NCBI RefSeq assembly: GCF_030230605.1
Contig: NZ_JASPDO010000003.1
Coordinates: 1-64,000 of the forward strand
Direction: 5' to 3'
Source of the DNA: Brevibacterium sp. UMB1308A
GTDB lineage: Bacteria > Actinomycetota > Actinomycetes > Actinomycetales > Brevibacteriaceae
Length of the DNA stretch: 64,000 nt
In this document: piece after piece, positions 1-51,398 of the stretch
Numbering within the stretch: the stretch's first letter is position 1
How the letters are laid out: every line of letters starts with the position of its first letter
Translations under genes and position numbers: made by a program
Notes under the pieces: model-generated
Seen by the model: only the letters and a program-made list of their open reading frames with translations
What the model was told of the DNA's origin: nothing
Database searches by the model: none

Positions 1-488
1 ATCTGGGCCGCGGGCGACGTGACCGGGCACCCCGAGTTCGTCTACGTCGCCGCCCACCACGGCACCCTCGTCGCCGAGAACGCGTTCGCCGACGCCGACC
101 GGTCCGTCGACTACGCCCGCCTGCCGCGGGTGACGTTCACCGGGCCCGCGATCGGCGCGGTCGGGATGACCGAGAAGGACGTCCTCGCTGCGGGGATCCG
201 CTGCGACTGCCGCGTCCTGCCCCTGCACCACGTGCCCCGCGCCTTGGTGAACCGCGACACCCGAGGGTTCATCAAGATCGTCGTGAACGCCGAGACGTAC
301 GAGATCCTCGGCCTGACCGCCGTCGCCAAGGACGCCGGGGAGCTCGCCGCCGCAGGCGTCCACGTGCTCGGCAGGACCGTCGCCGAGGTCGCCAACGCCT
401 GGGCCCCTACCTGACCATGGCCGAGGGCATCCGGATCGCCGCGAAGGCCTTCACCACCGACCCGTCGCTGCTGTCGTGCTGCGCATGA
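1..488 (+). pseudogene. merA: Mercuric reductase, C-terminal part, frameshifted
   Basis: The reading frame enters from outside the window with an FAD-binding signature (IWAAGDV) followed by the pyridine-nucleotide disulfide oxidoreductase dimerisation domain, with MerA-like stretches (VAKDAGELAAAGV). MerA reduces Hg(II) to Hg(0) with NADPH in the cytoplasm. The open frame stops at 412-414. If one base is added to the C run at 404-407, the frame instead reads WAPYLTMAEGIRIAAKAF and ends in LLSCCA at 488. That is the normal MerA tail with the vicinal cysteine pair that takes up Hg(II). The gene therefore seems to have lost one base, unless this is a sequencing error. GC content is clearly above that of the core genes further right. 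The family call is firm; loss of function is inferred. Confidence 0.85.
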
Positions 489-528
489 ACGGCAACGCAG
501 GCAATCGGGGAGATCTCATCCTGAAGAG

Positions 529-705
529 ATGCAGACGATGAGCGCCGATCAGGACCGCGACGAAGGGCGCGCCGGTCCCGTCGTCGCTGCAGGGACCGGG
601 CTGCTCTTGCTGGCATGCTGCGCGCTTCCGTCGCTGCTCTGCTGCGGCCTGCCGTTCATCGCGGCGGGCGGAGCGGGAAGGAATCGTCGAAGCGCGCAAG
701 GATAG
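529..705 (+). CDS. Small Cys-pair membrane protein, mercury-transport-like, probably chimeric at its end
   Basis: This 58-residue frame starts at ATG 529 (a second ATG is at 538), 40 bp after the merA tail. Its central hydrophobic segment contains two cysteine pairs (LLACCALPSLLCCGLPF). Vicinal cysteines in the first membrane helix are the hallmark of small mercury importers such as MerT and MerF, and a place next to merA fits that role. Only one membrane segment is present. After AAGGAG the sequence turns basic and runs into bases that read better as part of the next gene in another frame, so the natural C-terminus has probably been replaced at a junction near 665-680. The family assignment is inference from the cysteine pattern and position only. 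Confidence 0.45.
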   Translation: MQTMSADQDRDEGRAGPVVAAGTGLLLLACCALPSLLCCGLPFIAAGGAGRNRRSAQG

Positions 706-1102
706 ATTGGAATCGACCACCCGCCGTTTGCTCGCGATGGATTCAGCCATCCGCGATGCAGCCAAACTGAGCAATCAGGTCTGGGTGACCAGCCCGATTC
801 GCGCACACCACATCACCGCACACGCGAACAGTATTCACGACATCATCAACGCGTTCGCGCAGCATGTGCGGATGAATGTGGAGGATGCGGAACGTCTCCA
901 GGTCCAGGGCCGGCGTCAATCTGTGATGTCGCGAGCGGGAGACACGGTCAATGCTGCGAATCGCGCCCGTCAGTCTGCGGTGGAACAGGCGCAGAAGGCC
1001 ACCGAGAAAATTCGCGACATGAACGAAGACCGGCTGCTTGCGAAGGCCGCTGAAATCGAAGCCCGACGGGAGAAGGAGGAGCAAAAAGCGTTACGAGGAT
1101 AA
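671..1102 (+). pseudogene. Headless fragment of an unrecognised charged helical protein
   Basis: An open frame in phase 2 has a coherent, strongly helical protein character from about base 671 (EREGIVEARKDRLE) to the stop at 1102. It is rich in Arg, Glu, Ala and Gln, and its tail (RREKEEQKALRG) looks like a coiled coil. A TTG lies at 707, but protein-like sequence continues upstream of it without a proper start or ribosome-binding site. The 5' part therefore seems to have been removed when the mercury segment was joined on. I do not recognise the family. Charged helical proteins of this type occur on plasmids and integrative elements, which would suit the surrounding mosaic, but nothing in the sequence proves a function. 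Confidence 0.4.
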
Positions 1103-1187
1103 TACTGAGGCTGGATCCCGGCCGTCGCGACGCGGTCTCCGCTTCCGCCGAGACGAGAAAGGGTTGTGGGCACCTAGGCTGGGCGGC

Positions 1188-1455
1188 ATGAACGACCTGA
1201 CCATAGCACCCGGCCCGGGGATCCCCGACGGTGCGGTCATCGCCGCCGCCGATCTCGCGGAGCGTTTCGCGAAATCGTCGGCTCCAGGCGGCCAGGGCGT
1301 CAACACGACGGACGGCAAAGTCCAGCTTTCCATCGATGTCGCCGAATACGCATCGCTTACCGACGCCCAGCGTCACCGTATCTCGCGCAACCTCGAGCAC
1401 CGCCTAGACGGCTCCGTCTTTACCGTGACTGCGTCGACTCAGCGGTCTGTGTTTC
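1188..1455 (+). pseudogene. arfB: Truncated ArfB-like peptidyl-tRNA hydrolase (GGQ domain)
   Basis: Starting at ATG 1188, the protein matches the release-factor-like domain of ArfB/YaeJ, including the catalytic loop SAPGGQGVN. ArfB rescues stalled ribosomes by hydrolysing the peptidyl-tRNA ester bond with this GGQ motif. The match holds to about residue 88 (TVTASTQRS) and then stops abruptly. The following residues (VFRSWSPRLHL and onward, to a stop at 1580) do not resemble the family, which continues with a basic C-terminal tail that inserts into the ribosomal mRNA channel. The 3' part is therefore missing and the frame reads into foreign sequence. The gene is very probably non-functional. 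The 1456-1583 stretch behind it has no recognisable gene. Confidence 0.75.
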
Positions 1456-1583
1456 GCTCCTGGTCCCCTCGCTTGCACCTGCGACACAGTCTCGTGCCCC
1501 CGGGCCGTAGCATTCGGGGGAGCACAATAGCCCCAGTCCTCATCACGTCCCGGGATCAAAGAGTTCATCGCAGAGGTTAAGCA

Positions 1584-2669
1584 CTACACGTTAAACCGGA
1601 ACTCGACCACGTCGCCGTCGGCCATAACGTAGTCCTTGCCTTCCATACGGACCTTGCCAGCGGCCTTCGCCTCGGCCATCGAACCCAGCTCATCCAGGTC
1701 CTCAAACGAGACGATCTCAGCCTTAATAAAGCCCTTCTGGAAGTCCGTGTGAATGACACCTGCCGCCTCGGGAGCGGTCCACCCCTTACGGATAGTCCAC
1801 GCACGAGCCTCCTTAGGGCCCGCCGTCAGGTAGGTCTGCAAGCCCAGCGTGTCGAAACCAACCCTGGCCAGCTTGTCCAAACCAGGCTCATCCTGGCCGG
1901 TGGATTCGAGCATTTCGGCGGCTTCTTCCGGATCAAGCTCAATGAGCTCAGCTTCGAACTTCGCGTCCAAGAAAATCGCCTCAGCTGGCGCTACGAGTTC
2001 GCGCATCTTCGACTGCATAGCTTCGTCGGCCAGCCCGTCCTCATCAGTGTTAAACACGTAGATGAACGGCTTGGCAGTCATGAGCTGCAGTTCCTTGAGC
2101 TGGTCGACATCGATACCAGCCTTCTCTGCCCCCTGGAACAGCGTGGTGCCACCTTCCAGCAGCTCCTTCGCCTGGTCCATTGCTGCCAGGACATCCGGCT
2201 CCACAGCCTTACGCTTCACCTCTTTTTCAATCCGAGGTCGTGCGTTCTCCAGAGTCTGCAAGTCCGCAAGGATAAGTTCGGTCGAAATCGTGTCCATGTC
2301 GCCAGCGGGGTCTTTCGAACCCTCTACGCGCGTCACATCGGGGTCGCTAAACGCACGGGTCACCTGGCAGATCGCGTCAGCCTCGCGGATGTTGGCCAGG
2401 AACTTGTTCCCCAGCCCTTCACCCTCAGACGCGCCCTTCACAATGCCAGCAATATCAACGAAGCTCACGGTTGCAGGCAGGATCTTCTCTGAGCCAAAGA
2501 TCTCAGCCAACCGGTTCAGTCGCGGGTCCGGGAGCGGAACCACACCCACGTTGGGGTCGATCGTCGCAAACGGGTAGTTCGCTGCGAGTACTTCAGCACG
2601 GGTCAAAGCGTTAAACATGGTCGACTTACCCACATTGGGGAGTCCCACAATTCCAATAGTTAAAGCCAC
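1584..2669 (-). CDS. ychF: Redox-regulated ATPase/GTPase YchF (Obg family)
   Basis: This is a 361-residue P-loop NTPase, close to the usual 363 of YchF. It begins ALTIGIVGLPNVGKST, with G1 at about residues 8-16. The middle contains a coiled-coil region, and the C-terminal TGS domain ends in YVMADGDVVEFRFNV, typical of the family. YchF binds the ribosome and preferentially hydrolyses ATP; it acts in stress and translation control. I chose GTG 2669 as the start because family members begin with MALTIG or similar; an in-frame extension to 2750 has no family support. It lies 28 bp downstream of jetD on the same strand, so it may be read through from the Wadjet operon. In M. tuberculosis the orthologue (Rv1112) sits near ispH. 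Confidence 0.95.
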   Translation of the reverse strand: MALTIGIVGLPNVGKSTMFNALTRAEVLAANYPFATIDPNVGVVPLPDPRLNRLAEIFGSEKILPATVSFVDIAGIVKGASEGEGLGNKFLANIREADAICQVTRAFSDPDVTRVEGSKDPAGDMDTISTELILADLQTLENARPRIEKEVKRKAVEPDVLAAMDQAKELLEGGTTLFQGAEKAGIDVDQLKELQLMTAKPFIYVFNTDEDGLADEAMQSKMRELVAPAEAIFLDAKFEAELIELDPEEAAEMLESTGQDEPGLDKLARVGFDTLGLQTYLTAGPKEARAWTIRKGWTAPEAAGVIHTDFQKGFIKAEIVSFEDLDELGSMAEAKAAGKVRMEGKDYVMADGDVVEFRFNV

Positions 2670-2697
2670 GGGATGTAAGTCTAGTCGGTTGCGAACG

Positions 2698-3861
2698 CTA
2701 GGTTCTACCGCACTGGTCCAGCGCCCTTGGTGCGATGGCCTCGAGTGCATTTTTCCACGGGATTCTCTCCTGCTCCAAACGCACGTTACCTTCCGCTCGC
2801 ACCCGCGCTAACGCCCGCTCCTCCGAACTAGTCAACCCCGCAACCGACCCAGTATGCGGCTTCGGCTCCTCTACCCACAGGTCGCGGTGAGCCACGAGCG
2901 TCTCAACGTCCATAAGTATCGAAACCGCGCCCGGCACCTGTTTTCTAAACTTTGCGAGAATAGCGAACCCATGACTATCCAGGTCACCCCAGTACACCAC
3001 GCGCGCATTGCGTAACCACGGAAGCCGCGCAAGCAGGTCCACAGAATAACCGCCACCATGAATCACAACAGCTCCGGCACACCTCGGCATCGACAGCACC
3101 GACTCCAAGTTCTCAAACACGAACACTGTCTCCGGCTCAATCTCCATGCACGCTAACTCGTCAACGGGAGCCGTGACATCGCATAACGCCTCACACGGCG
3201 CGAGCTGAGGGTCCAAAAACCTCACGTGCAAACGAGGCTCCGGTTCAAGAACTGAAACGGCATCTTCCCTGCCATACGCCTTCAACAAGGCCGTCACCGC
3301 GGTTTTGTGCGTAGAAAACCACTTCGAGTCAACACCGCGAATAGGTAACTGCCGAGGTCGCAGCTGCCCCACCGGGTTGTCCCCTAACCATGTGACGACT
3401 TCGAGGACCCGGCCGAAATCTTCGTCGTTTAAGCCCACGAGGCGCTGTCCGTTCGCACGTATGGCCCCGGCGACCGTAGCAGAATCCCCGCACACCTCTC
3501 GAATACACGTAGCACGGTCTTTCATCCGCCTAAAACGCGACGCAGGTTCCCCACCAACAAAACGTGCAACGACCTCGGCGTCCTTCAACACAAACCGCAC
3601 GGGCACACTTTGCCTACCTACCCGCGACCACGCCCGCTCTTCCCACGTCACAGCCCCCGCAAACTCAGGTTTATCACTCACGTGACGCCACTGAACGACC
3701 CAGTCAATGGCCGCCTGCTGATCGACAATTGCCTGTTTTTCCGTGGGCGGGTGGAGGGCAAACTTGATAGGCAAAAAACTGTCAGGCGAAGCAACCCACC
3801 CGGACATGTTCCGTTGAAGACGCTCCCGCAAAGTGGACCGCGCTTCCTCAACTCCGCGCAT
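2698..3861 (-). CDS. jetD: Wadjet component JetD, TOPRIM nuclease subunit
   Basis: This 387-residue protein is of the DUF3322/DUF2220 type. The C-terminal half is a TOPRIM-like domain with a candidate catalytic Glu in FVFENLESV (about residue 250) and the DxD pair in YWGDLDSHGFAIL (about residues 293-295), the layout seen in JetD and topoisomerase VI subunit A. In Wadjet, JetD is the nuclease that cuts circular DNA once the JetABC motor has extruded it. The start at ATG 3861 is supported by AGGGGA 7 bases upstream; a longer version from 3903 has no such signal. It overlaps the end of jetC by 14 bp, so translation is probably coupled. It is the last gene of the four-gene operon and all key acidic residues are present. 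Confidence 0.9.
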   Translation of the reverse strand: MRGVEEARSTLRERLQRNMSGWVASPDSFLPIKFALHPPTEKQAIVDQQAAIDWVVQWRHVSDKPEFAGAVTWEERAWSRVGRQSVPVRFVLKDAEVVARFVGGEPASRFRRMKDRATCIREVCGDSATVAGAIRANGQRLVGLNDEDFGRVLEVVTWLGDNPVGQLRPRQLPIRGVDSKWFSTHKTAVTALLKAYGREDAVSVLEPEPRLHVRFLDPQLAPCEALCDVTAPVDELACMEIEPETVFVFENLESVLSMPRCAGAVVIHGGGYSVDLLARLPWLRNARVVYWGDLDSHGFAILAKFRKQVPGAVSILMDVETLVAHRDLWVEEPKPHTGSVAGLTSSEERALARVRAEGNVRLEQERIPWKNALEAIAPRALDQCGRT

Positions 3862-6800
3862 CACTGTCCCCTGCCGTGTGGCCTGACCAATCGATATTGG
3901 CAACCGTACTCAACTGCCTCGTGGGGTTATCAATCTCAGTCACTGCTCCCACATACGGTTCGATCGTCTGTAAGAGCTTCTGCGGGGTTGCCAACACCAA
4001 ATGAAAACCAAACTCGACAAAAATATCCAGAGCCATCCGCGTGTACCTGGTATCTGCTTTGTCGAACGCTTCGTCCAAGATCACGGTGCCGTACAGGGGC
4101 ACATCGTCGTCACGCTGTGCGAGCTGGTACCGCAACGCGGCCGCCAAGCAGAACACAACCAACTTTTGCTGCTGGCCACCTGACATGGCTGCCCCAGAGT
4201 CGTACGTTGCTCTCACCGTGCCGTGTTCGTCGACCTCATCGGCCAGGAACTTCACATGCGTTCGCGTATCCAAACACTGATTCCGCCACGCCTTGTCAAC
4301 GTGCTCACCAGAGTCAAACCGCCGCATGATTTCTGCCAACACCGCGTACTTGCTTTCTGCGGTCTGCATATCTTGGTCATCCCAACTACCGTCCACGATC
4401 GTGCGGAGTTGCCCCATGAAGTCTTCAACAACAGCGCTCCGTTGGGTTTTCACGCGCAAGTGCAAAAATCGGGCCTCATCGAACGGTTTCCGCGCCAGGG
4501 CCGAATTAATGGGCACCACCCGGTCCCTGATTTCGTTGGGCGCGGACATGATTTCGTTCAGCAGCTCGCCCACCAAGTCCTGCGAACGCTCCTGCAACAA
4601 CTTCCTAAACCGAGTCTCATACGTAGGCAGCCCGTTCGTGAGGATTTCGTCCAGAATCCGCAAGAACCCGGCCCGGTCTTCCACCCCAGGCATCAAATCG
4701 CTGGCAACCGCTTCCCACCGTTCTTTAAATTCGGTCGTCAGTTGCGTCACTTGATGCGAAGCCCGGTCAGCAGCATCCCGCGCTGTGTCTTTTTCTTTCT
4801 GTAGCGCTGTGGACACACGTTGACCCACCTCGTGAATGTTGTCCAAGCGGATGGCCCGCTTTTCACGTCGCAGCCGCTCTTCTAACCGCGTAGCCGTGTC
4901 TTCTGGCACGTCTTCGAGTTCGCCTGCCGCAATCCGCGCTTTGATCTCACCGGCTTTCTCTTCGCACACTGCCAGGTCGCGTTCGGCCATGCGCACCTCG
5001 TGCCTCGTGTCCTCCGTGGCGCTCCTTGCGGCGTCGTAGGCCGCCTTCGCTTTCTGCTCTGCTTGCACTGCCCGGCTGAGAGTCGCGTCTCCCGAGGTGA
5101 GAGTCCGCAAACGCTGTTCAATCGAGTCGACTTTCTTCTGACTTGAAACAGTGTCGTATTCCGCCCATGACCCGTCAAGGATGCTTTCAAGGCGACCTCG
5201 CCGAATATTGCGTTCCTGTTCTTGCCGGGTTGCCGCGTCCACAACCTCTTGGGCTGCGTTGAATTCCTCCTGTGCTTCTTTCAAACGGTCTGCGAGCGCA
5301 GAGAGTTTACCTGCACGGTCGCCCAGCACCCAGTGGCTACGGTCGTTGATGCCCCGGCGGTCATCTTTTTCGTAGCGCGTAGCCGAGGTTTTCATCTGCC
5401 CGCGGATCGTAACTGCCCGCGAGTGGTCCCCCAGATCGTCGGGAGTTTCTACACACACGTAGTTGTAGCGCACGGAAAGCGCCCACGAAACCCACGCGCC
5501 TACTGCTGAGTCTGCTATTTCGATGCGGTTGATGAGCGAGTCGCGGTGAAGCACCGGCTGCGGTCGTTCAATGCCGTCAGCAACTTCTTCGTAGACGAGT
5601 CGGCCACGTATTTCGTTGTTATCTACCCACTCGCGCACCGCTGGGAGATACTGGCTCCGCACCAGCATCGTGAGCGCAAACGGACGTAGAACCCGCTCAA
5701 TCGCGCCCGTCCATTCTTTGAAGTGTGGTTTCACTTCAATGAGTTCCGCTGCGAACGGCATCGATTCGGCGGGAATCCCGATACGTGTTGCAATGGCTTG
5801 GCGCACACGTTGCAAGTTGTCTGGAACTGTTGAACCGGACTGCCGGAGCGTGCGTATCTGGGCCTCGATTTCACGAACGTCACGCCTCGCTTTCGCAAGC
5901 CGGTCATTGTCTTCGTAAGACGCGCCTACCGACTGCTCTTGAGACTTGGTTTCGGCAGCAATTTCCGTGTGGAGTTCAGCAAACTCGTCTGCGGTCTGTG
6001 GCATGCGCATGATCCCAACCGACTGCAGTTGCGCTTCGAACCGACGTCGCCGGTTTTCAGTTGCACTGTGATCGTTCCTGGCGCCGTCCAGTGTGGCCTG
6101 CAGGACTTCAACTTCTGCACCACCGCTTTGTCTAACAACCCGTGTAGCCGTGTCAAGTTCTGACTCCGCCCTACCTTCTTCCGCGCGATTCTCTTCGAGT
6201 TGCGCTCGTTTCTGCGCGAGCGTACGCCGTAAGTGCTGTTGCTGCTCGTTGAGCATCGCAAGTTCGCGCCGCTTTAAGAACGGGCTGAGTAAGTCGTTCA
6301 GAGTGTTGAGGTCAACATGTTTGGCCCAGCAGGTGTCGTACTCTTCCGAGGCGGTGCGCAGTTTGAGGAGAAGATCTCGCTGTTTCCGCAGTTCGACAAC
6401 GTGCGCGTGAGCGTCCCGCAGGTCACCAAATTGCTGAACGGCAGTGTCAGCGATTTCGAACGTGTCCGGCACAGGCAGCATGAAATCGCGGAACAGCCGG
6501 TCAAGGTTGTCGAGGCTTTTTGCTGATTGTGTCCTGTGGAGGAGTTGCAGGGCAGATTCGTTTTCGATCCCGAACGCACGGCGTAACCGGGCATAAAACT
6601 TCGTGTGTGTGCCATTGGACGTGACGATAGCGGCGGGATGATCGGCTTTGAGTTTTTTGGTCTCCAACCCACCCGCGGCGTACTTTTGCAGGTCAATCAG
6701 GTCAAGCTCAGTCTCCTCAAGGACGCAAATATCGCCGAGGTCGCGCGCACTGACGCTGGACCCTTTGAGGAAGAAAAGGCGGGCGAGGCTCAGGGTCTTG

Positions 6801-7171
6801 CCCTCACCGTCGTGAAAGCGCAACACGATTCCGCTCCACGTAGAACTGGGTCGCAAATATTTACTCACAACCCGGTCTTGGTCGTCATCCGTGACTCTGG
6901 TCCACGCACCTCGGACGTAGCTGACCAAACTGCGTTGATCGGAACGCGAGGTTGACCCCTGTGCTGCCAAGTTAAATCGCAACCACTTGTCCGGGGTGAG
7001 CACACACGCGATCGCATCCAACAGGGACGACTTACCCGACCCAGACGGGCCGGTGATCAGGTGACCTTTGCGCGCAATATTGACAATGGAGATCTGCTTG
7101 TCGAACGTTCCCCAATTGGCCAGCTGCACTTGAGCCAGGCGCCACTGTCTGGGTTCCGCGTGCTCACTCAC
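3848..7171 (-). CDS. jetC: Wadjet component JetC, SMC-like ATPase
   Basis: This 1107-residue protein has an SMC/MukB layout. The Walker A motif GPSGSGKS lies at residues 41-48. Two long charged coiled-coil arms surround a central hinge. The signature SGGQQQK is at about 997 and Walker B VILDEAFD at about 1030-1037. The sequence ends with the ATPase head motif LVLATPQKLLQTI. JetC dimers form the ATP-driven loop-extruding motor of Wadjet, working with the kleisin JetA and the small subunit JetB on DNA. The GTG start at 7171 overlaps the jetB stop in a GTGA arrangement. The length is normal for the family, and all ATPase motifs are intact, so the motor should be active. Confidence 0.93.
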   Translation of the reverse strand: MSEHAEPRQWRLAQVQLANWGTFDKQISIVNIARKGHLITGPSGSGKSSLLDAIACVLTPDKWLRFNLAAQGSTSRSDQRSLVSYVRGAWTRVTDDDQDRVVSKYLRPSSTWSGIVLRFHDGEGKTLSLARLFFLKGSSVSARDLGDICVLEETELDLIDLQKYAAGGLETKKLKADHPAAIVTSNGTHTKFYARLRRAFGIENESALQLLHRTQSAKSLDNLDRLFRDFMLPVPDTFEIADTAVQQFGDLRDAHAHVVELRKQRDLLLKLRTASEEYDTCWAKHVDLNTLNDLLSPFLKRRELAMLNEQQQHLRRTLAQKRAQLEENRAEEGRAESELDTATRVVRQSGGAEVEVLQATLDGARNDHSATENRRRRFEAQLQSVGIMRMPQTADEFAELHTEIAAETKSQEQSVGASYEDNDRLAKARRDVREIEAQIRTLRQSGSTVPDNLQRVRQAIATRIGIPAESMPFAAELIEVKPHFKEWTGAIERVLRPFALTMLVRSQYLPAVREWVDNNEIRGRLVYEEVADGIERPQPVLHRDSLINRIEIADSAVGAWVSWALSVRYNYVCVETPDDLGDHSRAVTIRGQMKTSATRYEKDDRRGINDRSHWVLGDRAGKLSALADRLKEAQEEFNAAQEVVDAATRQEQERNIRRGRLESILDGSWAEYDTVSSQKKVDSIEQRLRTLTSGDATLSRAVQAEQKAKAAYDAARSATEDTRHEVRMAERDLAVCEEKAGEIKARIAAGELEDVPEDTATRLEERLRREKRAIRLDNIHEVGQRVSTALQKEKDTARDAADRASHQVTQLTTEFKERWEAVASDLMPGVEDRAGFLRILDEILTNGLPTYETRFRKLLQERSQDLVGELLNEIMSAPNEIRDRVVPINSALARKPFDEARFLHLRVKTQRSAVVEDFMGQLRTIVDGSWDDQDMQTAESKYAVLAEIMRRFDSGEHVDKAWRNQCLDTRTHVKFLADEVDEHGTVRATYDSGAAMSGGQQQKLVVFCLAAALRYQLAQRDDDVPLYGTVILDEAFDKADTRYTRMALDIFVEFGFHLVLATPQKLLQTIEPYVGAVTEIDNPTRQLSTVANIDWSGHTAGDSDARS

Positions 7172-7788
7172 TGTGCCTCACCTTGCTTTTTTGACTTTTG
7201 ATTTTCACGAGCGATTCGTTCATACGTCTCAGTGAGTTCCTTCACCCGGTCCTCATCAACGAGGAAACGCACGATCGGTGAAATCTCATAGCGGTCCTCA
7301 CTCGCCTTGTGCAACACGCGCACAGTGTTGATCATCCGCCTCCACGAAGCGTTCAAGTTTCGCTGAAAGGTTGTTTCGTCACCTGTCCGGAACACTGAAA
7401 GCTGTTCGTAGATCTCACTCTGATCAACGATCACACGGCGAACACCTTGCGCGGCCAGCAACCGTTGGCGCAAAACTAAGAGCATGGCAGTGTCAAGAAA
7501 CTTGAGGTTTTCAGCTCGTAGTGCGACCGGAGCTTGGATCTCATTGGTCACAACCCGCCGGGTGAACGCAAACGAAGCACTGTGGTCTATGACAAGGTCC
7601 ACGAACACATCGTTCAAACGCGACCTAATCAAACCTTCATCTGCAACTAAAGCCGCCCACAACTGAGGTTTCTGTTCCCCTGAAACGTAGGGCCCCTTCA
7701 ACAGTTCGAGAAGCACCCGGCGAGTGTCGAACGCCAGCTGTCCTTCGTCACCATTCCACAGACCACCGTCTACCGTGTCTTCACTCAT
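7168..7788 (-). CDS. jetB: Wadjet component JetB (DUF4194)
   Basis: This 206-residue protein is of the DUF4194 family, the MukE-like small winged-helix subunit of Wadjet that binds the kleisin JetA. Family-like stretches are the RVLLELLKGPYVS segment near the N-terminus, the SEIYEQLSVFRTGDETTFQRN region, and RMINTVRVLHKASEDRYEISPIV near the end, followed by a charged tail. I chose ATG 7788 (MSEDTVDGG) because it overlaps the jetA stop codon as ATGA, a common coupling signal in this operon. The in-frame extension to 7860 would lie wholly inside jetA. The gene ends in a GTGA overlap with jetC. The context of four adjacent jet genes makes the identification secure. Confidence 0.9.
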   Translation of the reverse strand: MSEDTVDGGLWNGDEGQLAFDTRRVLLELLKGPYVSGEQKPQLWAALVADEGLIRSRLNDVFVDLVIDHSASFAFTRRVVTNEIQAPVALRAENLKFLDTAMLLVLRQRLLAAQGVRRVIVDQSEIYEQLSVFRTGDETTFQRNLNASWRRMINTVRVLHKASEDRYEISPIVRFLVDEDRVKELTETYERIARENQKSKKQGEAQ

Positions 7789-9248
7789 GCACGGATCCTT
7801 TCGGTAAAGTGCCAACGCGCGACAGTGGCAGAGCGCGCCACGTCGTCCAATCCAACCCACTCCAGAGTGTCACTCTCACCTGGCACAGACTCACCGTGGT
7901 TGACCGCCAAGGACACCAACCCCACCACGCTGGCAACCCCCTGGGTGGCCGGAAACTGGGATAACACCTCGGCGACGGTCACCGGTCTGCCTTCTTCCAC
8001 AGCCGCATTGACGTTGCCAACGAGCTCAACGATATCGATTTCAGACTCACGGGCCAGCGCAACCAAAGCGCGGTAGTCGACCTCAGTAGCCTCAGCAACA
8101 CCTAGTTCGTCGCCAATGATGTACTCGTCAGGGTCGTGAAGCTGAATCTCACCCACACTCGTCATGCGCACTGAAGGCAACTCAAGCGTGATGCCAATGT
8201 CCGCCGTTGGTTTGCACACATCCGTAATGCTGGCGGCCTGCGACATCGCCTCCCTAGTGAGAGCCAGAAGCACCCGGTCTGTTTGAAACTCACGCGAAAA
8301 CACATAGTTGCGCAAGCCTCGCGTGAACTCCGACAGCGTTTGTTGAACGTCCCGCGCCCCAGTCTTCATGTGTCGCATGAGCAGACGCAGAGCTTGCCGT
8401 TCATCGCGGTTAAGTTGTAGTGCGAAGTCCCGGTCCAAAATGCGCGAAATGTCTTCGTCAAAGGACGCGGCATGCTCCGGTTCCCGCAATAACGTAGCAA
8501 AGGCCGCGAACGTCCGGCCTTCATCGGATGACGCGATCAAGTCGACACCACGAAAAATCTCGTCAAGGACCCGCGACTGCGACTCGTCAGACTCCAGGAT
8601 TGACACCCGCAACTCGTGATTGAGTTCCTCGAACCGCGCTCGCACTCGGGCAAAGTCACCCGGGAGCCCGGCTGCCTGTTGCAGAATATCGCTCACACGC
8701 TCACGCGCCATACGGTTATCCAGCATCGTCGTATCACCGTCGCCTCGGTGAATCAGCTCGATCTGCTGCTCGATGCGACGTTTCTCTGCCTCCAGCTGGC
8801 CGAGCCTGCGTGATTGGTCGGGGTCGGTCTCAAGGGCCAGGTTGTGGACGGCTTGCGAAAGGCTCACCAGCCGCGACTGCGTGGTGGTCTGGGGTGGGGT
8901 TCGCAGCTGGTCAAGAATGCGGATTGCGTCAAATCCGGCCGCGGACAGTTCGTAGATTTCACCCCGGACGGCTGTTGCGGGACGTCGCACCAGAATGCCT
9001 TTTCGGCGCCAGTCGTCACAGAATGCTTTTCCGCGCTTGTCACCTGTGTCAAAGTAATCGCGAAGCTCTTCAAGGTCCGCTTCAATTCGTTCGTGCAGTT
9101 CGTCTGTGGGCATCACAGCCCCTGGTTTCCCGAGGTGGGCGCCCAGGATTGCCGCCATGATGGGTAGGTTGTCTGCCCGGAGCATGCCCAATGCACTGTC
9201 GGACTCCATGAGGCGTTTAAACGCCAGGGCAGAGCTGAGCACACGCAT
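7785..9248 (-). CDS. jetA: Wadjet component JetA, kleisin-like (DUF3375)
   Basis: This 487-residue protein is of the DUF3375 type, the MukF-like kleisin that bridges the JetC ATPase heads. The N-terminal winged-helix region (MRVLSSALAFKRLMESDSALGMLRAD in two parts) is followed by a helical coiled segment (RRLGQLEAEKRRIEQQIEL) and a C-terminal domain ending in TLEWVGLDDVARSATVARW. It is the first gene of jetABCD. The ATG at 9248 is followed on the other side by a 103-bp divergent intergenic region shared with a PucR-like regulator. No strong Shine-Dalgarno sequence precedes the ATG, and a CATACT box lies only about 8 bases upstream, so a leaderless transcript is possible. Length and content agree with complete family members. 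Confidence 0.9.
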   Translation of the reverse strand: MRVLSSALAFKRLMESDSALGMLRADNLPIMAAILGAHLGKPGAVMPTDELHERIEADLEELRDYFDTGDKRGKAFCDDWRRKGILVRRPATAVRGEIYELSAAGFDAIRILDQLRTPPQTTTQSRLVSLSQAVHNLALETDPDQSRRLGQLEAEKRRIEQQIELIHRGDGDTTMLDNRMARERVSDILQQAAGLPGDFARVRARFEELNHELRVSILESDESQSRVLDEIFRGVDLIASSDEGRTFAAFATLLREPEHAASFDEDISRILDRDFALQLNRDERQALRLLMRHMKTGARDVQQTLSEFTRGLRNYVFSREFQTDRVLLALTREAMSQAASITDVCKPTADIGITLELPSVRMTSVGEIQLHDPDEYIIGDELGVAEATEVDYRALVALARESEIDIVELVGNVNAAVEEGRPVTVAEVLSQFPATQGVASVVGLVSLAVNHGESVPGESDTLEWVGLDDVARSATVARWHFTERIRA

Positions 9249-9300
9249 AGTGACAGTATGACAAATCAGGGACGGTCATGAGCCGGATTTCTAATGTCTT

Positions 9301-9321
9301 GACTGTTAGTTAGACACAGTC
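9301..9321. promoter_or_regulatory. Inverted repeat in the jetA/regulator intergenic region
   Basis: GACTGT and ACAGTC form a perfect 6-bp inverted repeat separated by 9 bases, between the divergent starts of jetA (9248) and the PucR-like gene (9352). Spacing of about 15 bp between half-site centres fits a dimeric regulator on one and a half helical turns. Binding by the adjacent regulator is a guess. Confidence 0.3.
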
Positions 9322-9351
9322 TCTTTTTCGTGACAATGACACAATCAGAGC

Positions 9352-10503
9352 ATGGTCACTTCTGCCATTCGTGAGCGGATCGCGCAACAGCTTCGCACGC
9401 ACAAGGACACACTTCTTCCGGTCATCATTGACTACGTGCGTAAAGAGTGCCCGCTCTACATCGATGTCACGGACAGGGAGATAGAAGAGTCACTAGAACA
9501 AAACATCGAAATGTGCATCCGCGCAGGAGTGACCCGTACCGGAAACTCGGATTCGCACTTTCTCAACTGGGCGCAGATCTCACGATCCCGCTTCGAAAAA
9601 TCAGTGCCCATGGAAGAAATCTTCCAGACTTACCGCTTCAGCATTGAGCTCATCGTCGCGGAGTTAATCGTTCTGCTCAACGACTCCGGGTGCACCGCAA
9701 GCGAACAGACATCTGCAATTACCAAGGTCTGGCAGTCGGCAAATGCGTACACGGTCAAACTTGCTCAGGTGTACAACCACCATCAGCACATGCAAGCCTC
9801 ACAGGATCAAGCGCAAAAGGCGATACTTTTTGACGCAATCAAATCGGGGGCTCAGCTCGATCACCACGTGTGCCAGGCCGCCGATTTCTTCCAGCTCAAT
9901 GACCGGACTCCCTACAGTTACTTCATCGTGGCAATCCCAAAGGGCTCGACGCTACCGGCACATGAAGTCTTACGGACTCTTGAGTCTCGCCTCACCAATG
10001 GACGTGGAGTGTGCATGGCTACCGGCTCAACCATCGAAGGGTTCTCAACCGATGCCATCTCTTTTCCTCACACAAGCATCGCGATTGGCCCACCACGAAC
10101 CCTAAGCGAGCTCCACTACTCCTACAACGTGGCTCATCAGATCTCCCGCACGTCCGTGGGTCAAAAGCTGGGCACCCACTTCATTTCGGATGTTGGCTGG
10201 CGCGTCGCTGTTCTCTCACACCCCGAGGTGCTCCTCCCCTACAAAGAGAAGTATGTAACTCCGCTGGAGCGCTCAGGCGCGGACGTCTCGACACTTCTTA
10301 CGTCACTTGAGGCTTATCTTGCCCACGATGCACATGCCACAGATGCCGCACGCATCCTGCACTGCCACCCAAACACACTCAGGTATCGAATCACGCGCTT
10401 TGAGGAATTGACGTCATGCTCGGTCGATCACTCTGAAACCCGCGTTGAGCTCGCCTGGCTGTTCGAAGCGTTAAAAGTGCACGAACTTCACCAGTTGTCA
10501 TGA
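9352..10503 (+). CDS. PucR-family helix-turn-helix transcriptional regulator
   Basis: This 383-residue regulator has an N-terminal all-helical sensor region (residues 1-170, RsbRD-like), a weak GGDEF-derived middle domain, and the C-terminal PucR helix-turn-helix (about 315-375: SLEAYLAHDAHATDAARIL, then HPNTLRYRITRFEELT). The latter binds DNA. Regulators of this family usually control adjacent catabolic operons in response to a metabolite. Here the next genes on the same strand are an AtoE-type transporter and acetoacetyl-CoA synthetase, so an acetoacetate or short-chain-acid signal is the natural inference. It could also act on the divergent jet operon. The ATG at 9352 is the first in frame. 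A 16-bp RNA hairpin follows 12 bases after the stop. Confidence 0.88.
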   Translation: MVTSAIRERIAQQLRTHKDTLLPVIIDYVRKECPLYIDVTDREIEESLEQNIEMCIRAGVTRTGNSDSHFLNWAQISRSRFEKSVPMEEIFQTYRFSIELIVAELIVLLNDSGCTASEQTSAITKVWQSANAYTVKLAQVYNHHQHMQASQDQAQKAILFDAIKSGAQLDHHVCQAADFFQLNDRTPYSYFIVAIPKGSTLPAHEVLRTLESRLTNGRGVCMATGSTIEGFSTDAISFPHTSIAIGPPRTLSELHYSYNVAHQISRTSVGQKLGTHFISDVGWRVAVLSHPEVLLPYKEKYVTPLERSGADVSTLLTSLEAYLAHDAHATDAARILHCHPNTLRYRITRFEELTSCSVDHSETRVELAWLFEALKVHELHQLS

Positions 10504-10514
10504 CACACAAACAC

Positions 10515-10554
10515 CGCCTGTAAGTTTTGTGCGTTGGGACAAGGTTTACAGGCG
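10515..10554 (+). terminator. 16-bp hairpin between the regulator and the atoE-like gene
   Basis: CGCCTGTAAGTTTTGT pairs along all 16 positions with ACAAGGTTTACAGGCG around an 8-base loop, 12 bases after the regulator stop. Three of the pairs are G-U wobbles that form only in the plus-strand RNA, which favours an RNA structure over a protein-binding palindrome. No T tract follows, so it may be an attenuator or a mRNA-stability element instead of a full terminator. The outer 9 bp are also a perfect DNA inverted repeat and could be an operator. Confidence 0.5.
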
Positions 10555-10613
10555 AAGTGACTCCTAGCATTGAGACGACGTTGATGTAGACGATCGATTG
10601 CAAAGGAGCAACC

Positions 10614-11936
10614 GTGAGAACCCTCTCGAGAAGCCTCAACATACTGGTTGAAAAACACTTACCAAGCGCGTTTCTTTTTGCGCTGATCCTGACAATTATT
10701 GCCGCAGCGATGGGCGTGTTTTTAGGCGGCGCCAGTCTCCCAGAAGTTGCCAACATGTGGTACGCCGGTTTCTGGAAGTTCCTCGAATTTGGTATGCAAA
10801 TGGTGGTGGTTCTGGTCACCGGGTATGCCCTTGCCAAAGCTCCTTTAGTCAACCGGCTCCTGGCTAAGTTCGCCACTATCCCGAAAACCCAGTTCGCTGC
10901 ACTCACAGTAGTGATGGTCGTCTCTGCGATTCTCGGAATCATCAGCTGGGGACTGGGCTTTGTGGGCGGAACCATCATCGCGATCGAAGTAGCGAAGCGC
11001 ACACAGACAGCTGATTTCCGCCTCCTGGTCGCCTCGTCATACTCAGCGATCATCGCTACTCAGCCCATGTCTCTAGCGCTCACAGCGCCTCTTCTCGTGA
11101 ACACGCCGGGCCACCCGCTCGAAGAGAAAATCGGCTTGATCCCGGTGACAGAAACAATCTTTAGCCCCACCATGCTACTGGTGTCGATTGTGGGCTTCCT
11201 TGGCATCTATGCGGGCTTCGCTTTTATGGCACCCAAGCCCAACGAGGTCATTCCACTGAACGGAGACATCGCCGAACCACCTGCAGATCCAAAGCCTCAG
11301 ACCGCAGCCGAAAAAATCGACAACAGCATCATCGTTAACACCATTGTTGTCGTATTCGGAATCCTCGCCATCAGCCTCTACTTCATCGCCAACGGCTTCA
11401 ACCTCGAACTCAACATCATGAACTTCATCTTCCTGGTGGTTGGAATTGGGTTGCATGGTAGCCCGGCAAAGTACGCGAAATGCATCACTGACGGCATCCC
11501 TGCCGCTTCCGGAATTGTCCTCCAGTTCCCGTTCTATGCGGGCATCATCGGAATCATGGCTGGCTCAGGCCTCATCGTCATGATTGGTCAGTGGTTCGCT
11601 TCCATCTCCACCGAAGCGACGTTCCCACTTTTCACGTACATTGCCGCGATGATCGTCAACATTTTTGTTCCATCTGCCGGTGGCCAGTGGCAGGTGCAGG
11701 GGCCGGTCATGATTGAAGCGATCCAAAACATGAACATTAACCCTGCCACCATTGTGAACGCCGTTTCCGTTGGTGACATGACAACCAACCTGCTCCAGCC
11801 GTTCTTTGTGCTCCCCACCTTGGGTCTGGCAAAACTGGGCCTCAAGGACATTTGGGGATACTGCATGACCGCAATGCTCATTTTGATGGTCATTTCCGGA
11901 ACAATTTTCCTCCTCGTACCCGTTCTAGGATGGTGA
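10614..11936 (+). CDS. Short-chain fatty acid transporter, AtoE family
   Basis: This 440-residue multi-pass membrane protein matches the AtoE short-chain fatty acid transporter family from end to end. Recognisable family stretches are EVANMWYAGFWKFLEFGMQM, VTGYALAKAP, ISWGLGFVGG and NIFVPSAGGQWQVQGPV. AtoE-type carriers take up butyrate, acetoacetate and related acids across the cytoplasmic membrane. The GTG start at 10614 has AAAGGAG seven bases upstream. The next gene, acetoacetyl-CoA synthetase, begins at or within a few bases of the stop codon, so the two are almost certainly cotranscribed and the likely substrate is acetoacetate. Substrate identity is inferred from this neighbour. Confidence 0.9.
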   Translation: MRTLSRSLNILVEKHLPSAFLFALILTIIAAAMGVFLGGASLPEVANMWYAGFWKFLEFGMQMVVVLVTGYALAKAPLVNRLLAKFATIPKTQFAALTVVMVVSAILGIISWGLGFVGGTIIAIEVAKRTQTADFRLLVASSYSAIIATQPMSLALTAPLLVNTPGHPLEEKIGLIPVTETIFSPTMLLVSIVGFLGIYAGFAFMAPKPNEVIPLNGDIAEPPADPKPQTAAEKIDNSIIVNTIVVVFGILAISLYFIANGFNLELNIMNFIFLVVGIGLHGSPAKYAKCITDGIPAASGIVLQFPFYAGIIGIMAGSGLIVMIGQWFASISTEATFPLFTYIAAMIVNIFVPSAGGQWQVQGPVMIEAIQNMNINPATIVNAVSVGDMTTNLLQPFFVLPTLGLAKLGLKDIWGYCMTAMLILMVISGTIFLLVPVLGW

Positions 11937-11941
11937 TACAC

Positions 11942-13930
11942 ATGACCGACAACACCCCGACCCAGTTCTGGTCCCCCACCCAAGAATCCATTGACCGGAG
12001 CCAACTCGCGCGCTTCACACGGTTTCTCAACGACTCCTACGGCGCCGCCATCAACCTCGGCGACTACCAGGCACTGCACACGTGGTCTGTTGAGCACAGC
12101 GACCGCTTTTGGTCAGCTGTATGGGAATACTTCGACGTTCGCGGGCAACGCTCCGATACACCAGTGACGCAAACCGTAAGTGACACAGAAACCACGTGGT
12201 TTAGTGGCTCACAGATCAACTACGCTGAGAACATTCTGCGCTGGACCCACGAACGCCCGGATTCTCCCGCACTCATTGGTCTCCACGAAACAGCGCAACG
12301 CGAAGAGATCAGTTGGAAAGAACTCGCAGGCCAAGTAGGTGCGCTCGCACAGCATTTCCGCTCCCGAGGTGTCCGCCCAGGTGACGTTGTTTGCGCAGTT
12401 TTGCCGAATATCCCCCAAACGGTCGTTGCTCTCCTAGCCACCGCATCCGTTGGCGCGATCTGGACCGTGGTCAATACAGACTTTGGTACCCACGGAGTCA
12501 AAGAACGCTTTGAACAACTCCAGCCAAAAGTACTCCTCACAACCGACAGTGTTCACTTCGGAGGAAAGGTCGTTGACAAAACGGCGCAGCTCCCTGAACT
12601 TCTCGAAGCACTGCCTACTGTTAAACATCACGTCCTCGTCGACACAGACGTAGACAGTGACGAAACATTGCCAGCAGCCTCTGCCCGTTTAAGCGACATC
12701 CTCGCGTCACCCCAAGAACCGGATTTCACCCGCGTGGAGTTCAATTCGCCCTTGTGGGTTCTGTATTCTTCTGGAACAACGGGTAAGCCCAAGGGAATCG
12801 TGCACTCTCACGGCGGTGTCGTGCTTGAGTCGCTCAAAGCGAACGCGCTTCAGTACGATGTCCGCCCCGGCGACCGTACACACTTTGCGGCTTCAACCAC
12901 GTGGGTCATCTGGAACATGATGATCGCGACACTCTTTGTGGGAGCGACCGTCGTCACCTACGACGGCTCCCCTGCCCACCCAGATACTCTTCAGCATCTG
13001 AAGATTGTGTCAGAGGAACAGGTTGCCTTCTTTGGCACGGGTGCCGCCGTTTTAACCATGGGAGAAAAGTCTGGCCTGTCTCATGCCAACAACTGGGACT
13101 TCTCACATCTGCGATTCGTTCTCTCAAGCGGTTCGGCACTCCCGCCTACAACGTGGAAATGGCTCCGGGAACAGATCGGAACGGACTTTCATTTGGGTTC
13201 CGACTCAGGAGGCACCGACATCGCTACCGGCATCATTGGTTCAAACCCGTGGGATGTACAAAACATCGGGGAGCTTCAAGGCCCGTATCTGGGTGTTGAC
13301 GCACGGTCCGTTGGACCTGACCAGGAAACCGTCACTGATGAAGTTGGCGAGCTTATTATTGCCAACCGGATTCCGAGTATGCCCATCTACCTGTGGGGCG
13401 ACACCGACCGTTCCCGCTACACCGAAACCTACTTCTCCACCTACAAAGGAATTTGGCGCCAAGGAGACTGGGTAACAAACACCTCGGCGGGAGGGTGGAT
13501 TGTGCACGGCCGCTCAGACTCAACCATCAACCGCGGTGGAGTGCGCATGGGGTCTGCCGATATCTGCCGGGTTGTCGACGAAGTCGACGGAGTGACGTCC
13601 TCCATGGTCATTGGCGCAGAACTCAAAAACGGCGGCTACTACATGCCCCTGTTCGTCGTGACAACGCGTGATGAGGCTGAACACGACGCGTTAGAAAAAG
13701 AGATTGTGGCTGCGATCCGGCAAAAGGTGTCTCCGCGGTATGTGCCCGATGCCGTCATTTTCGCACCTGATGTGCCCCTCACGCGGACCGGCAAGCTCAT
13801 GGAGGTTCCGGTTAAGCGCCTGTTCCAAGGGGCCTCGCCCGACTCGCTGAACCGCACGGCAAGTCAGAACCCCGAGGTGCTCAACTGGTATTCGGAGCAG
13901 GCCACCAAGTTCGCACAATGGGAGGACTGA
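11942..13930 (+). CDS. aacS: Acetoacetyl-CoA synthetase
   Basis: This 662-residue ANL-superfamily adenylate-forming enzyme activates acetoacetate to acetoacetyl-CoA with ATP. The N-terminal acetyl-CoA-synthetase-type cap is followed by the P-loop-like motif LYSSGTTGKPKGIVHSHGG (about residue 275). The glycine-rich block FHLGSDSGGTDIATG is typical of acetoacetate-CoA ligases, unlike acetyl-CoA synthetases. The hinge and C-terminal domain end with the catalytic lysine in LTRTGKLMEVPVKRLF. ATG 11942 is preferred, with AGGA 11 bases upstream; an in-frame ATG at 11930 overlaps the transporter stop and cannot be excluded. Length is normal for the family. With the upstream transporter it forms an acetoacetate uptake and activation pair. 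Confidence 0.92.
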   Translation: MTDNTPTQFWSPTQESIDRSQLARFTRFLNDSYGAAINLGDYQALHTWSVEHSDRFWSAVWEYFDVRGQRSDTPVTQTVSDTETTWFSGSQINYAENILRWTHERPDSPALIGLHETAQREEISWKELAGQVGALAQHFRSRGVRPGDVVCAVLPNIPQTVVALLATASVGAIWTVVNTDFGTHGVKERFEQLQPKVLLTTDSVHFGGKVVDKTAQLPELLEALPTVKHHVLVDTDVDSDETLPAASARLSDILASPQEPDFTRVEFNSPLWVLYSSGTTGKPKGIVHSHGGVVLESLKANALQYDVRPGDRTHFAASTTWVIWNMMIATLFVGATVVTYDGSPAHPDTLQHLKIVSEEQVAFFGTGAAVLTMGEKSGLSHANNWDFSHLRFVLSSGSALPPTTWKWLREQIGTDFHLGSDSGGTDIATGIIGSNPWDVQNIGELQGPYLGVDARSVGPDQETVTDEVGELIIANRIPSMPIYLWGDTDRSRYTETYFSTYKGIWRQGDWVTNTSAGGWIVHGRSDSTINRGGVRMGSADICRVVDEVDGVTSSMVIGAELKNGGYYMPLFVVTTRDEAEHDALEKEIVAAIRQKVSPRYVPDAVIFAPDVPLTRTGKLMEVPVKRLFQGASPDSLNRTASQNPEVLNWYSEQATKFAQWED

Positions 13931-13983
13931 CGTCCAGACTGGAAATCAAAAACTGTGTCAGTGCCTCATGGCACAGTGAGAAC

Positions 13984-15129
13984 ATGAGCATTTCAGTTGT
14001 CGCCGTAGTGTTTGGGGCACTTATTCTGGGCCTTGTTGCCGGGGCCGTGTTGGGTCTTTTAGCAGGCTCAGCACGGGCACGGTCACGTTACTCTGTTGAA
14101 CTTGCACAAGCTCAAACAAAAACAGAGCTCCTCACCGAACGGACTGCCAACCTCGAAGCAGACGCAGCAATCGCCGCTGAGCTCACCGCCGCAGTTGGCC
14201 CTCTCGCCGCGAGCGTGCGTGATCTCAAGGCTCACATGCACAAGCAAGACCACGAACGAATCGACCAGATCGCTCGGCTGTCAGAAAACATCACATCCCT
14301 GACACAACAAAACGCTCAACTCCACGCATCAACCACACAACTGTCAAACGCTCTACACTCCACGTCCGCGCGTGGTGACTGGGGCGAAGTACAGCTCAAA
14401 CGCATCGTCGAATACTCCGGCCTACTCCCCCACGTCGACTTCGACACTCAAGTCTCCACGCAGCACGGTCGCCCCGACATGGTCGTCCACCTCCCCGGCG
14501 GAGGCACCATCGTCGTCGACGCGAAAGTCCCACTTTCTTCCCGGCTCAGCGAGAACAACAAGGAATCAGCTAAACAGCACGCTCAAGCGCTTCTTCGACA
14601 CGTCGACGCACTCGCCAGCAAAACCTACTGGAAGTCCTTCGACCAGTCCCCCGAATTCGTCGTGTGCTTCATCCCCACTGACGGCCTCCTCTCCCACGCC
14701 GCCGCCACCTACCCGGCACTCATCGAACAAGCACTCAGCAAAAACGTCGTCATCGCCTCACCCTCAACCCTGCTCGTGCTCCTCAAAACAGTCGCACTCA
14801 ACTGGCGCCACTACAACATCTCCACCTCGGCAGCCCAAGTCCTCAAACTGGGCACCGAACTCTACGAACGCACCGGGCTTCTCACCGAGCGACTGACAAA
14901 ACTCGGCGCCACACTCGAGCGAGCCACCCAGGAATACAACAGCTTCATCGGATCATTCGAAACCAGGTTCCTCGTCACTGCTCGCAAACTCACCCAGACC
15001 GGAATCACCAACACACAACTCGACGAACTCAACGGCATCACCACCCCCACCCGCAACATCACCGCACAAGAACTCGCCTACCCCACCAGCCCAGAAACCC
15101 TGCCACAGCACCGCAACACAGGAACGTGA
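13984..15129 (+). CDS. rmuC: DNA recombination protein RmuC homologue
   Basis: This 381-residue protein begins with one N-terminal membrane helix (VVAVVFGALILGLVAGAVLG) and continues with a coiled coil (about residues 30-130) and the RmuC nuclease-like domain. The domain contains GDWGEVQLKRIVE, the MVVHLPGGGTIVVDAKVPL block (with the PD-D/E...K-like DAK), and SPSTLLVLLKTVALNWR. RmuC limits recombination at inverted repeats and has also been linked to defence against foreign DNA. I chose ATG 13984 because it opens directly into the membrane helix; an earlier in-frame start at 13918 would overlap aacS. The gene lies 53 bp behind aacS. All family blocks are present. Confidence 0.92.
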   Translation: MSISVVAVVFGALILGLVAGAVLGLLAGSARARSRYSVELAQAQTKTELLTERTANLEADAAIAAELTAAVGPLAASVRDLKAHMHKQDHERIDQIARLSENITSLTQQNAQLHASTTQLSNALHSTSARGDWGEVQLKRIVEYSGLLPHVDFDTQVSTQHGRPDMVVHLPGGGTIVVDAKVPLSSRLSENNKESAKQHAQALLRHVDALASKTYWKSFDQSPEFVVCFIPTDGLLSHAAATYPALIEQALSKNVVIASPSTLLVLLKTVALNWRHYNISTSAAQVLKLGTELYERTGLLTERLTKLGATLERATQEYNSFIGSFETRFLVTARKLTQTGITNTQLDELNGITTPTRNITAQELAYPTSPETLPQHRNTGT

Positions 15130-15170
15130 CCTGCCACGCACCTGCTCCAACCAACGCACCTACCGCGCAC

Positions 15171-15202
15171 AAAAAGGCGCCCCCGAAAACTCGGAGGCGC
15201 CT
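15171..15202 (-). terminator. Rho-independent terminator of the ferritin gene
   Basis: Read on the minus strand, AGGCGCCTCCGA pairs with TCGGGGGCGCCT (12 bp including one G-U) around a 4-base loop and is followed directly by five T. It starts 18 bases after the ferritin stop codon. Confidence 0.85.
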
Positions 15203-15220
15203 CTAGAAAAGCTATACCTA

Positions 15221-15733
15221 TTAGGCCTCAGTTCCAGAAGAGGTCCGCGAACCCAACTCTGCGTCCAAACGCAACAGGCCGTTACCATCGTCCCCAGCCA
15301 AAACAAGCTGATCCACGATCTCACCCACTGTTGCTTCTTCCTCAATCTGTTCATCTAAGAACCAGTTGAGCAGCGGACGTGAATCCAAGTCGCCTTGAGC
15401 ATCGGCCGCACGGTACAGCTCACGAATCGCTTCGCTCACCTTCTGTTCGTGCGCCAAAGCAGCCTTAAAAAGGTCCAACGGCTTCACATCAACACCCACC
15501 TTGGGCGCCGGAATGTCGCCGATCTGCACATGACCCCCACGGTCAACCACGTGGTCAATGAACTTGTTCGCGTGCACAATTTCCTCATCGGCCTGCGCCC
15601 GCAACCACTGCGCCATGCCCGGAAAACTCTGCACATCCGCGACAACCGCCAACTGGCGATACGTCATCGATGCCTCAAACTCCAAGGTGATCTGCTCGTT
15701 AAACTTCGCTTCCAACGCGTCAGCAAGCTTCAT
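15221..15733 (-). CDS. ftn: Ferritin
   Basis: This 170-residue four-helix-bundle ferritin stores iron in a 24-mer cytoplasmic shell. Ferroxidase-site residues are visible: Glu in LEFEASMTYRQLA (helix A), the ADEEIVHANKFIDHV block with E and H (helix B), Glu in AHEQKVSEAIREL (helix C) and the EQIEEEATVGEIV segment (helix D). These are the non-haem ferritin pattern and no bacterioferritin haem Met is evident. The ATG at 15733 has a very strong AAGGAGG seven bases upstream. It is a single-gene unit with its own terminator, 36 bp downstream of the ispH stop on the same strand, so readthrough from ispH is possible. Confidence 0.93.
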   Translation of the reverse strand: MKLADALEAKFNEQITLEFEASMTYRQLAVVADVQSFPGMAQWLRAQADEEIVHANKFIDHVVDRGGHVQIGDIPAPKVGVDVKPLDLFKAALAHEQKVSEAIRELYRAADAQGDLDSRPLLNWFLDEQIEEEATVGEIVDQLVLAGDDGNGLLRLDAELGSRTSSGTEA

Positions 15734-15769
15734 GTTTCCTCCTTAAGAAACCCAAAATCCACTGTCCAA

Positions 15770-16846: not shown

Positions 16847-16928
16847 AACACCATTCTAAGAAACCCTGGCACTAAGAGCCAGGTTAGACTGCCCACACGC
16901 GAACAATCACACCACGAACGGATAAGTC

Positions 16929-45686: not shown

Positions 45687-46114
45687 CCGCACAACTCGAT
45701 GCGCCCGTCATTCGTAAACCACACGCGCGCACATCACACACCCGCCCCACTCCAGCAACTCCTCGCGAACCACGCGTGGAGACCAGCGGAGTTGACAACG
45801 TGGTGACGGCTCTGGCCGTTGCGTGCGTTGAAATCCTCCAAGGGCGCCGCTCCGCTTCAACGCTCGTCAGATGGGCAACCCCTGAACTCATTGACCGCTT
45901 ACGCAGGTTTGCCCAAGTACGAACCAAACTGGCTCGCACGCGCCCGGCACCGGCAGCCCGTATTTCACCAGGCGCCGTCCGAGTGTGTCATCTGAACCCA
46001 AACGTGGTGGAAGCAAGCGTCAATATCATGAGCCCTGACCGCAGACGCGCAGTTGCGTTGCGCCTAGAAAGCACGTCCGGGCGTTGGGTTCTGCACGAAC
46101 TCGTAATCGTCTAG
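45683..46114 (+). CDS. Rv3235 family protein
   Basis: This 143-residue protein has a Pro/Arg-rich N-terminus and a conserved C-terminal domain (VVTALAVACVEILQGRRSA, STLVRWATPELIDRLRR, then RVCHLNPNVVEASVNIM and RWVLHELVIV). It matches the Rv3235 family, small actinobacterial proteins of unknown function encoded beside secA. The start ATG 45683 overlaps the LysM stop. It would converge directly on secA if the cmx transposon had not inserted 34 bp behind its stop codon. Confidence 0.8.
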   Translation: MTAQLDAPVIRKPHARTSHTRPTPATPREPRVETSGVDNVVTALAVACVEILQGRRSASTLVRWATPELIDRLRRFAQVRTKLARTRPAPAARISPGAVRVCHLNPNVVEASVNIMSPDRRRAVALRLESTSGRWVLHELVIV

Positions 46115-46147
46115 CATGGCCACGCACACTGGCACAGCCTCACACGA

Positions 46148-46153
46148 GCTAGC
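46148..46153. repeat. Target-site duplication, left copy (GCTAGC)
   Basis: GCTAGC directly precedes the left end of the cmx element and is repeated at 48575-48580. It fits the NCTAGN target reported for IS481-type elements. Confidence 0.85.
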
Positions 46154-51389: not shown

Positions 51390-51398
51390 GCGCAGAAA

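Follow-up and report, generated by a model that had tools for sequence, protein, structure and literature searches.

A complete, probably working type I Wadjet operon at the ychF/pucR junction of a Brevibacterium mcbrellneri-like genome, within a chromosomal tract that was probably exchanged recently

Wadjet systems consist of the kleisin, KITE and SMC subunits JetA, JetB and JetC and the Toprim subunit JetD; they cleave small circles once loop extrusion is completed, and linear DNA and circles above about 100 kb escape (PMC10586767). They have been reported as present in 42% of actinobacterial genomes (PMC10482375), and in the genus Brevibacterium, Wadjet genes with the same four-gene composition as described here have been published for B. 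linens, B. epidermidis and B. aurantiacum (PMC6579920). For B. mcbrellneri, we found no treatment of Wadjet in the literature as judged by titles, which is not proof of its absence from print. The closest described systems with solved structures are MksBEFG of Corynebacterium glutamicum and JetABCD of Escherichia coli GF4-3 and Pseudomonas aeruginosa PA14. Here we analyzed the first 64,000 nucleotides of contig NZ_JASPDO010000003.1 of Brevibacterium sp. UMB1308A, in the following called the window, and we conclude with good confidence from these sequence analyses that it encodes, in a Brevibacterium resembling B. mcbrellneri, a complete type I Wadjet that probably works, that the operon was inserted at the ychF/pucR junction, and that the surrounding tract was recently exchanged. 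The four genes, all of them complete, adjacent and co-oriented, run on the minus strand from position 9248 to 2698:

7785..9248, minus strand: jetA, kleisin-like (DUF3375), 487 aa; Pfam DUF3375 407.7 bits, PADLOC JetA1 583 bits, PDB JetA 8dk1_A with E 1e-17
7168..7788, minus strand: jetB, KITE/MukE-like (DUF4194), 206 aa from ATG; Pfam DUF4194 120.9 bits, PADLOC JetB1 258.7 bits
3848..7171, minus strand: jetC, SMC-like ATPase, 1107 aa, GTG start; PADLOC JetC1 1289.9 bits, PDB JetC 8as8_A with E 1.3e-68
2698..3861, minus strand: jetD, TOPRIM nuclease, 387 aa from ATG; Pfam DUF3322 and JetD_C, PADLOC JetD1 391 bits, PDB MksG 8b7f_A with E 5.3e-38

The initial annotation had read this stretch as four co-oriented jet genes with overlapping ends, encoding DUF3375, DUF4194, SMC-like and TOPRIM proteins that correspond to JetA, JetB, JetC and JetD, with intact JetC ATPase motifs and JetD acidic residues. 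This reading is borne out: coordinates and junctions agree (ATGA between jetA and jetB, GTGA between jetB and jetC, and a 14-bp overlap of jetC and jetD), the Pfam matches lie above their cut-offs, all four subunits match the jet profile models by large margins (583, 259, 1290 and 391 bits in PADLOC), and every motif and residue could be located in the sequence or in an alignment. Above the Pfam cut-offs are SbcC_Walker_B (84 bits) and AAA_29 (78 bits) for JetC, as well as DUF3322 (122 bits) and JetD_C (155 bits) for JetD, and weaker SMC_N, AAA_23, ABC_tran and DUF2399 matches in the Jet proteins remain below. NCBIfam gave no family for JetA, JetB and JetD, and none above cut-off for JetC. The assignment to type I is clear in PADLOC, as JetC scores 1290 bits with JetC1 versus 22 bits with JetC2 (among 25 of 27 families) and JetD scores 391 bits with JetD1 versus 19 bits with JetD3, and for JetA (11 families) and JetB (19 families) only type I models were matched. 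With four adjacent genes, type I models as the best matches, the JetC motifs and the JetD residues found together, the locus is, by sequence, a complete type I Wadjet. No defence model was matched in three further proteins, two from the window and one from locus L025.

JetC carries the motifs that we take to be Walker A (GPSGSGKS at 41), signature (SGGQQQK at 997) and Walker B (VILDEAF at 1030), and JetD contains E250, Y272, D293, D295, E363 and E365. For MksG of C. glutamicum, its authors assign metal binding to E236 and D279 and regard Y258 as the probable tyrosine of the active site, with E349 and E351 given as alternatives (PMC10123090). JetD aligns with MksG at a constant offset of 14, and E250, Y272, D293, E363 and E365 are the same residues as E236, Y258, D279, E349 and E351. 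As all these catalytic positions are kept, the JetD nuclease appears to be intact and to belong to those that bear the tyrosine.

MksG (8b7f) of the type I Wadjet MksBEFG is the best PDB match of JetD, with the catalytic tyrosine kept, but the sequences are distant (134 bits over 348 residues); in the window, ychF lies directly downstream of the operon, whereas the comparison with C. glutamicum covered the protein sequences. Among further solved relatives, 8as8 and 8dk2 were found together with others for JetC, 7til and 8q72 for JetD, and 8dk1 with others for JetA; 8as8, 8dk2, 8q72 and 7til we take to be from E. coli GF4-3 and P. aeruginosa PA14, for part of these entries according to PMC10123090. 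In comparison with these two systems, JetC matches strongly (E 1.3e-68 with 8as8 and 1.2e-67 with 8dk2) and the TOPRIM residues of JetD align, whereas the JetD matches are weaker (43 and 34.5 bits) and JetB is unmatched by sequence; a PDB sequence search with JetB at E 0.001 gave no match at all. By homology with the studied systems, JetABC would act as a loop-extruding SMC motor. Once a small closed circle leaves this motor no more DNA to extrude, JetD would cut, and small circular plasmids would thereby be destroyed.

JetC is matched in 50 of 57 Brevibacterium species genomes, and in 47 of 54 if only the more complete genomes are counted. The best JetC piece is 48–57% identical in 44 of the 50 matching genomes and 100% identical in G001, and more distant proteins are found in G012, G030, G011 and G023 (35–39%) and in G031 (29%). 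The JetC tree has 41 rows, which represent the window, 13 loci and 27 proteins selected out of 120 listed ones. It was computed by a quick method without mixture model and came with warnings about long branches for G031 and about an unusual letter composition in four rows. In this tree, the window groups with four proteins that are 95, 83, 69 and 58% identical and come from the sources ena and lgn, presumably metagenomes, and this group sits in a Brevibacterium clade that also holds one Citricoccus sequence. Some jetC loci of the genus are possibly disrupted, as the match lies in two pieces in different open frames in G004 and contains one TGA in G012 and G030 (possibly disrupted loci: L092 7824–11079, L086 7643–10957 and L087 7460–10774). 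Split jetC matches in G013 and G014 are due to separate contigs and that in G002 lies in one open frame, with no sign of damage.

More informative than the identity of the system are its insertion site, the displaced ychF gene, and the tract that is common with B. mcbrellneri ATCC 49030. At the site, the following features are relevant:

2685..9334, no strand: jet insert without counterpart in the relative G025, 6,650 bp, with sharp ends; blastn to G025 stops at 2684 and restarts at 9335
1584..2669, minus strand: ychF, complete, GTG start inferred; NCBIfam TIGR00092 418.6 bits; same open reading frame in ATCC 49030
9352..10503, plus strand: PucR-type regulator gene (pucR), divergent from jetA and to the right of the insert; Pfam HTH_30 66.7 bits; 88% identical to the G025 orthologue beside ychF

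G025, in which we found no JetC match, shows the empty site: ychF and pucR are divergent neighbors whose starts are 80 bp apart, 48 unmatched bp lie between the two genes, and the further order pucR, scfA, acyl-CoA synthetase gene (AACS) and rmuC-like gene, the last two named by eye, is the same as in the window. The comparison thus shows the difference, and its likely direction is an insertion of the operon between ychF and the PucR-type gene in this lineage. The start of ychF (2669) lies 28 bp downstream of the jetD stop (2698) in the same direction, so that ychF may be transcribed with the operon. The insert has separated ychF from the ychF/pucR intergenic region, and its expression now probably requires either read-through from jetD or a promoter located within that gene. 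The promoter scan gave one site versus 1.6 expected, and the terminator scan eight versus 7.4 expected.

Two vehicles for the operon were considered and rejected. For a transposon, no repeat joins the insert ends (2600–9450; among 20 of 28 direct-repeat families and 25 of 31 inverted pairs), and for a plasmid, the jet stretch has no match in 72,556 plasmid records by blastn in distant mode.

The window was further compared with ATCC 49030, the nearest among the genomes used here, and one feature stands out:

1..10708, no strand: tract nearly identical to ATCC 49030 (10707 of 10709 columns identical); its left end lies beyond the window

Over the 10,709 columns of this tract, operon included, there is one mismatch (8337) and one gap, and the JetC proteins are 100% identical. 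Mismatches start at 10709, with 19 of them within 10709–10995. From 10709 to 18000, 7149 of 7291 columns are identical, with 141 mismatches (about 2% divergence), and from 18001 to 46110, 26120 of 28124 (92.9%, about 7% divergence), with 1940 mismatches and 64 gap columns; the stretch 48576–62523 is 94.2% identical. The longest identical runs within the tract are 7929 and 2371 bp, and that outside is 881 bp (15170–16050). Judged from the window only, the genome is a sister lineage of ATCC 49030, perhaps a separate species. The tract holds shared chromosomal genes (ychF and pucR), and G025 differs from the window by 14–19% over 9335–10500, so that conservation does not explain the identity. The likeliest and simplest reading is a recent homologous exchange of a chromosomal tract: a stretch of at least 10.7 kb with the jet genes would have been exchanged between lineages that otherwise diverge by about 7% in the window. 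Homologous recombination would most likely have taken place in the common flanks, formed by ychF at one end and by pucR with the beginning of scfA at the other. The intermediate divergence of about 2% at 10.7–18 kb points to a layered history and not to one clean event.

Three other explanations have to be weighed against this interpretation. SMC-like complexes are able to serve the chromosome, and the operon could be a housekeeping condensin of the MksBEF kind and not a plasmid defence, for which one may invoke that JetB matches the MksE model, albeit at a sub-threshold 22.3 bits (cut-off 27). However, the MksBEF housekeeping condensin is defined by the absence of a nuclease subunit, and here the fourth gene, jetD, is present and complete and encodes a TOPRIM nuclease with its catalytic residues. 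In addition, the nearest solved JetD relative by sequence belongs to C. glutamicum MksBEFG, a Wadjet of type I according to its authors (PMC10123090), and we regard a housekeeping role in place of defence as highly improbable. The near identity of the tract could also be an assembly artefact: sequence from a strain resembling ATCC 49030, as reads or as contigs, would have been fused near 10.7 kb to that of a second lineage, and only one of the two would then possess the Wadjet. The abrupt break at 10708/10709 is in line with such a joint, but identity to the right of the break stays at about 98% for 7.3 kb and includes the 881-bp identical run, a mosaic-like pattern that suggests several exchanges, and a single unbroken alignment extends from 1 to 46110, which makes an artefact unlikely.

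More weight, although still on the doubtful side, can be given to the third explanation, in which the jet genes already resided between ychF and pucR in the common ancestor with G025 and were then lost from G025. A JetC at 95% identity (P0001) suggests that jet was present in the species complex before the exchange, and the seven of 57 genus genomes without JetC match indicate that losses or non-detections happen. Against an ancestral position stands the genus-wide comparison of sites: unlike in the window, none of 20 other Brevibacterium jet loci that were fetched as 20-kb stretches, out of 50 genomes with a match, lies at ychF, and pucR and scfA were likewise absent in all 20. Conversely, among ten further Brevibacterium ychF loci (up to 20 kb), rmuC is divergent from ychF in seven, directly adjoining it in six and about 2.3 kb off in G002, with no match to pucR, scfA or AACS in these seven. 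Jet therefore must have reached the site at some time. In the other three ychF loci (G031, G040 and G012), none of the nine query genes besides ychF was seen, rmuC included, and the ancestral gene order is therefore not certain. Two additions seem to be stacked at the junction, with the pucR block having arrived first and jet afterwards. As to the genes that accompany jet elsewhere, the neighbor of jet in L080, by eye a transporter-like gene, gives no more than weak matches in G001, G025, G031 and G040 (best E 2.9e-6), and an asparaginase-like gene of the same neighborhood (named by eye) lies in G001 on a different contig from jet.

The system itself is ordinary for Actinobacteria, and what adds some interest is that it was probably exchanged recently and may be coupled to ychF. 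Since the empty site is available, the insert has sharp ends and the tract is nearly identical across diverged lineages, the locus represents a case of the movement of an anti-plasmid system, in which one can directly test how the system spread and how it affects a neighboring housekeeping gene. Tentatively, and as a possibility to which we would give less than even weight, we propose that Wadjet passes between close relatives within chromosomal tracts, through homologous exchange rather than on plasmids, that it did so here very recently across about 7% divergence and took the housekeeping gene ychF along, and that ychF was drawn into the jet transcription unit. If this is true, the loss of Wadjet may have become costly.

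Foreign DNA is present nearby, as had been noted in the initial annotation. The mercury-resistance DNA beside jet is found again in that window positions 1–674 match the merA region carried by a Micrococcus luteus plasmid at 98.7% identity, and the resistance transposon about 37 kb away corresponds to 46111–48575 (46.1–48.6 kb), where a Cmx/CmrA-type chloramphenicol efflux gene (483 bits, cut-off 400) stands beside an IS481 transposase gene (293 bits, cut-off 224) and ATCC 49030 has only about 42 bp. It had further been pointed out that a chromosome with anti-plasmid defence still takes in foreign genes. This is factually right, but it is no paradox: since linear DNA and circles above about 100 kb escape Wadjet (PMC10586767), the defence and the captured genes do not contradict each other. 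Both the mercury patch and the resistance insertion are now in chromosome-like surroundings, and G025, which is without JetC match, carries similar mercury-patch DNA.

Some smaller observations concern these regions. The mercury/cadmium patch covers window positions 1–1580 and L025 4317–12096, and in ATCC 49030 it comprises complete genes for MerA and a cadmium-type P-type ATPase, both scoring above their family cut-offs, and a merR-like open reading frame named by eye. The window begins inside merA, and compared with the complete gene of ATCC 49030 this merA has an interrupted reading frame close to its 3′ end, possibly through a sequencing error. Another stretch of about 0.5 kb (62524–63037) has no counterpart in the ATCC 49030 contig. 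Extra copies of the ychF 3′ end (about 450–490 bp) occur in ATCC 49030 and G025, at L025 3800–4252 (93% DNA identity to the window ychF), L071 13487–13977 (94%), and G025:C1 419151–419600 (97% at the protein level), as would result from the repeated joining of islands or circular elements to this end of the gene; no integrase was recognized by eye among the open reading frames. In G025, a piece of an IS110-type transposase gene (L071 14366–14911; 99 bits, cut-off 140) lies between the ychF fragment and the full ychF.
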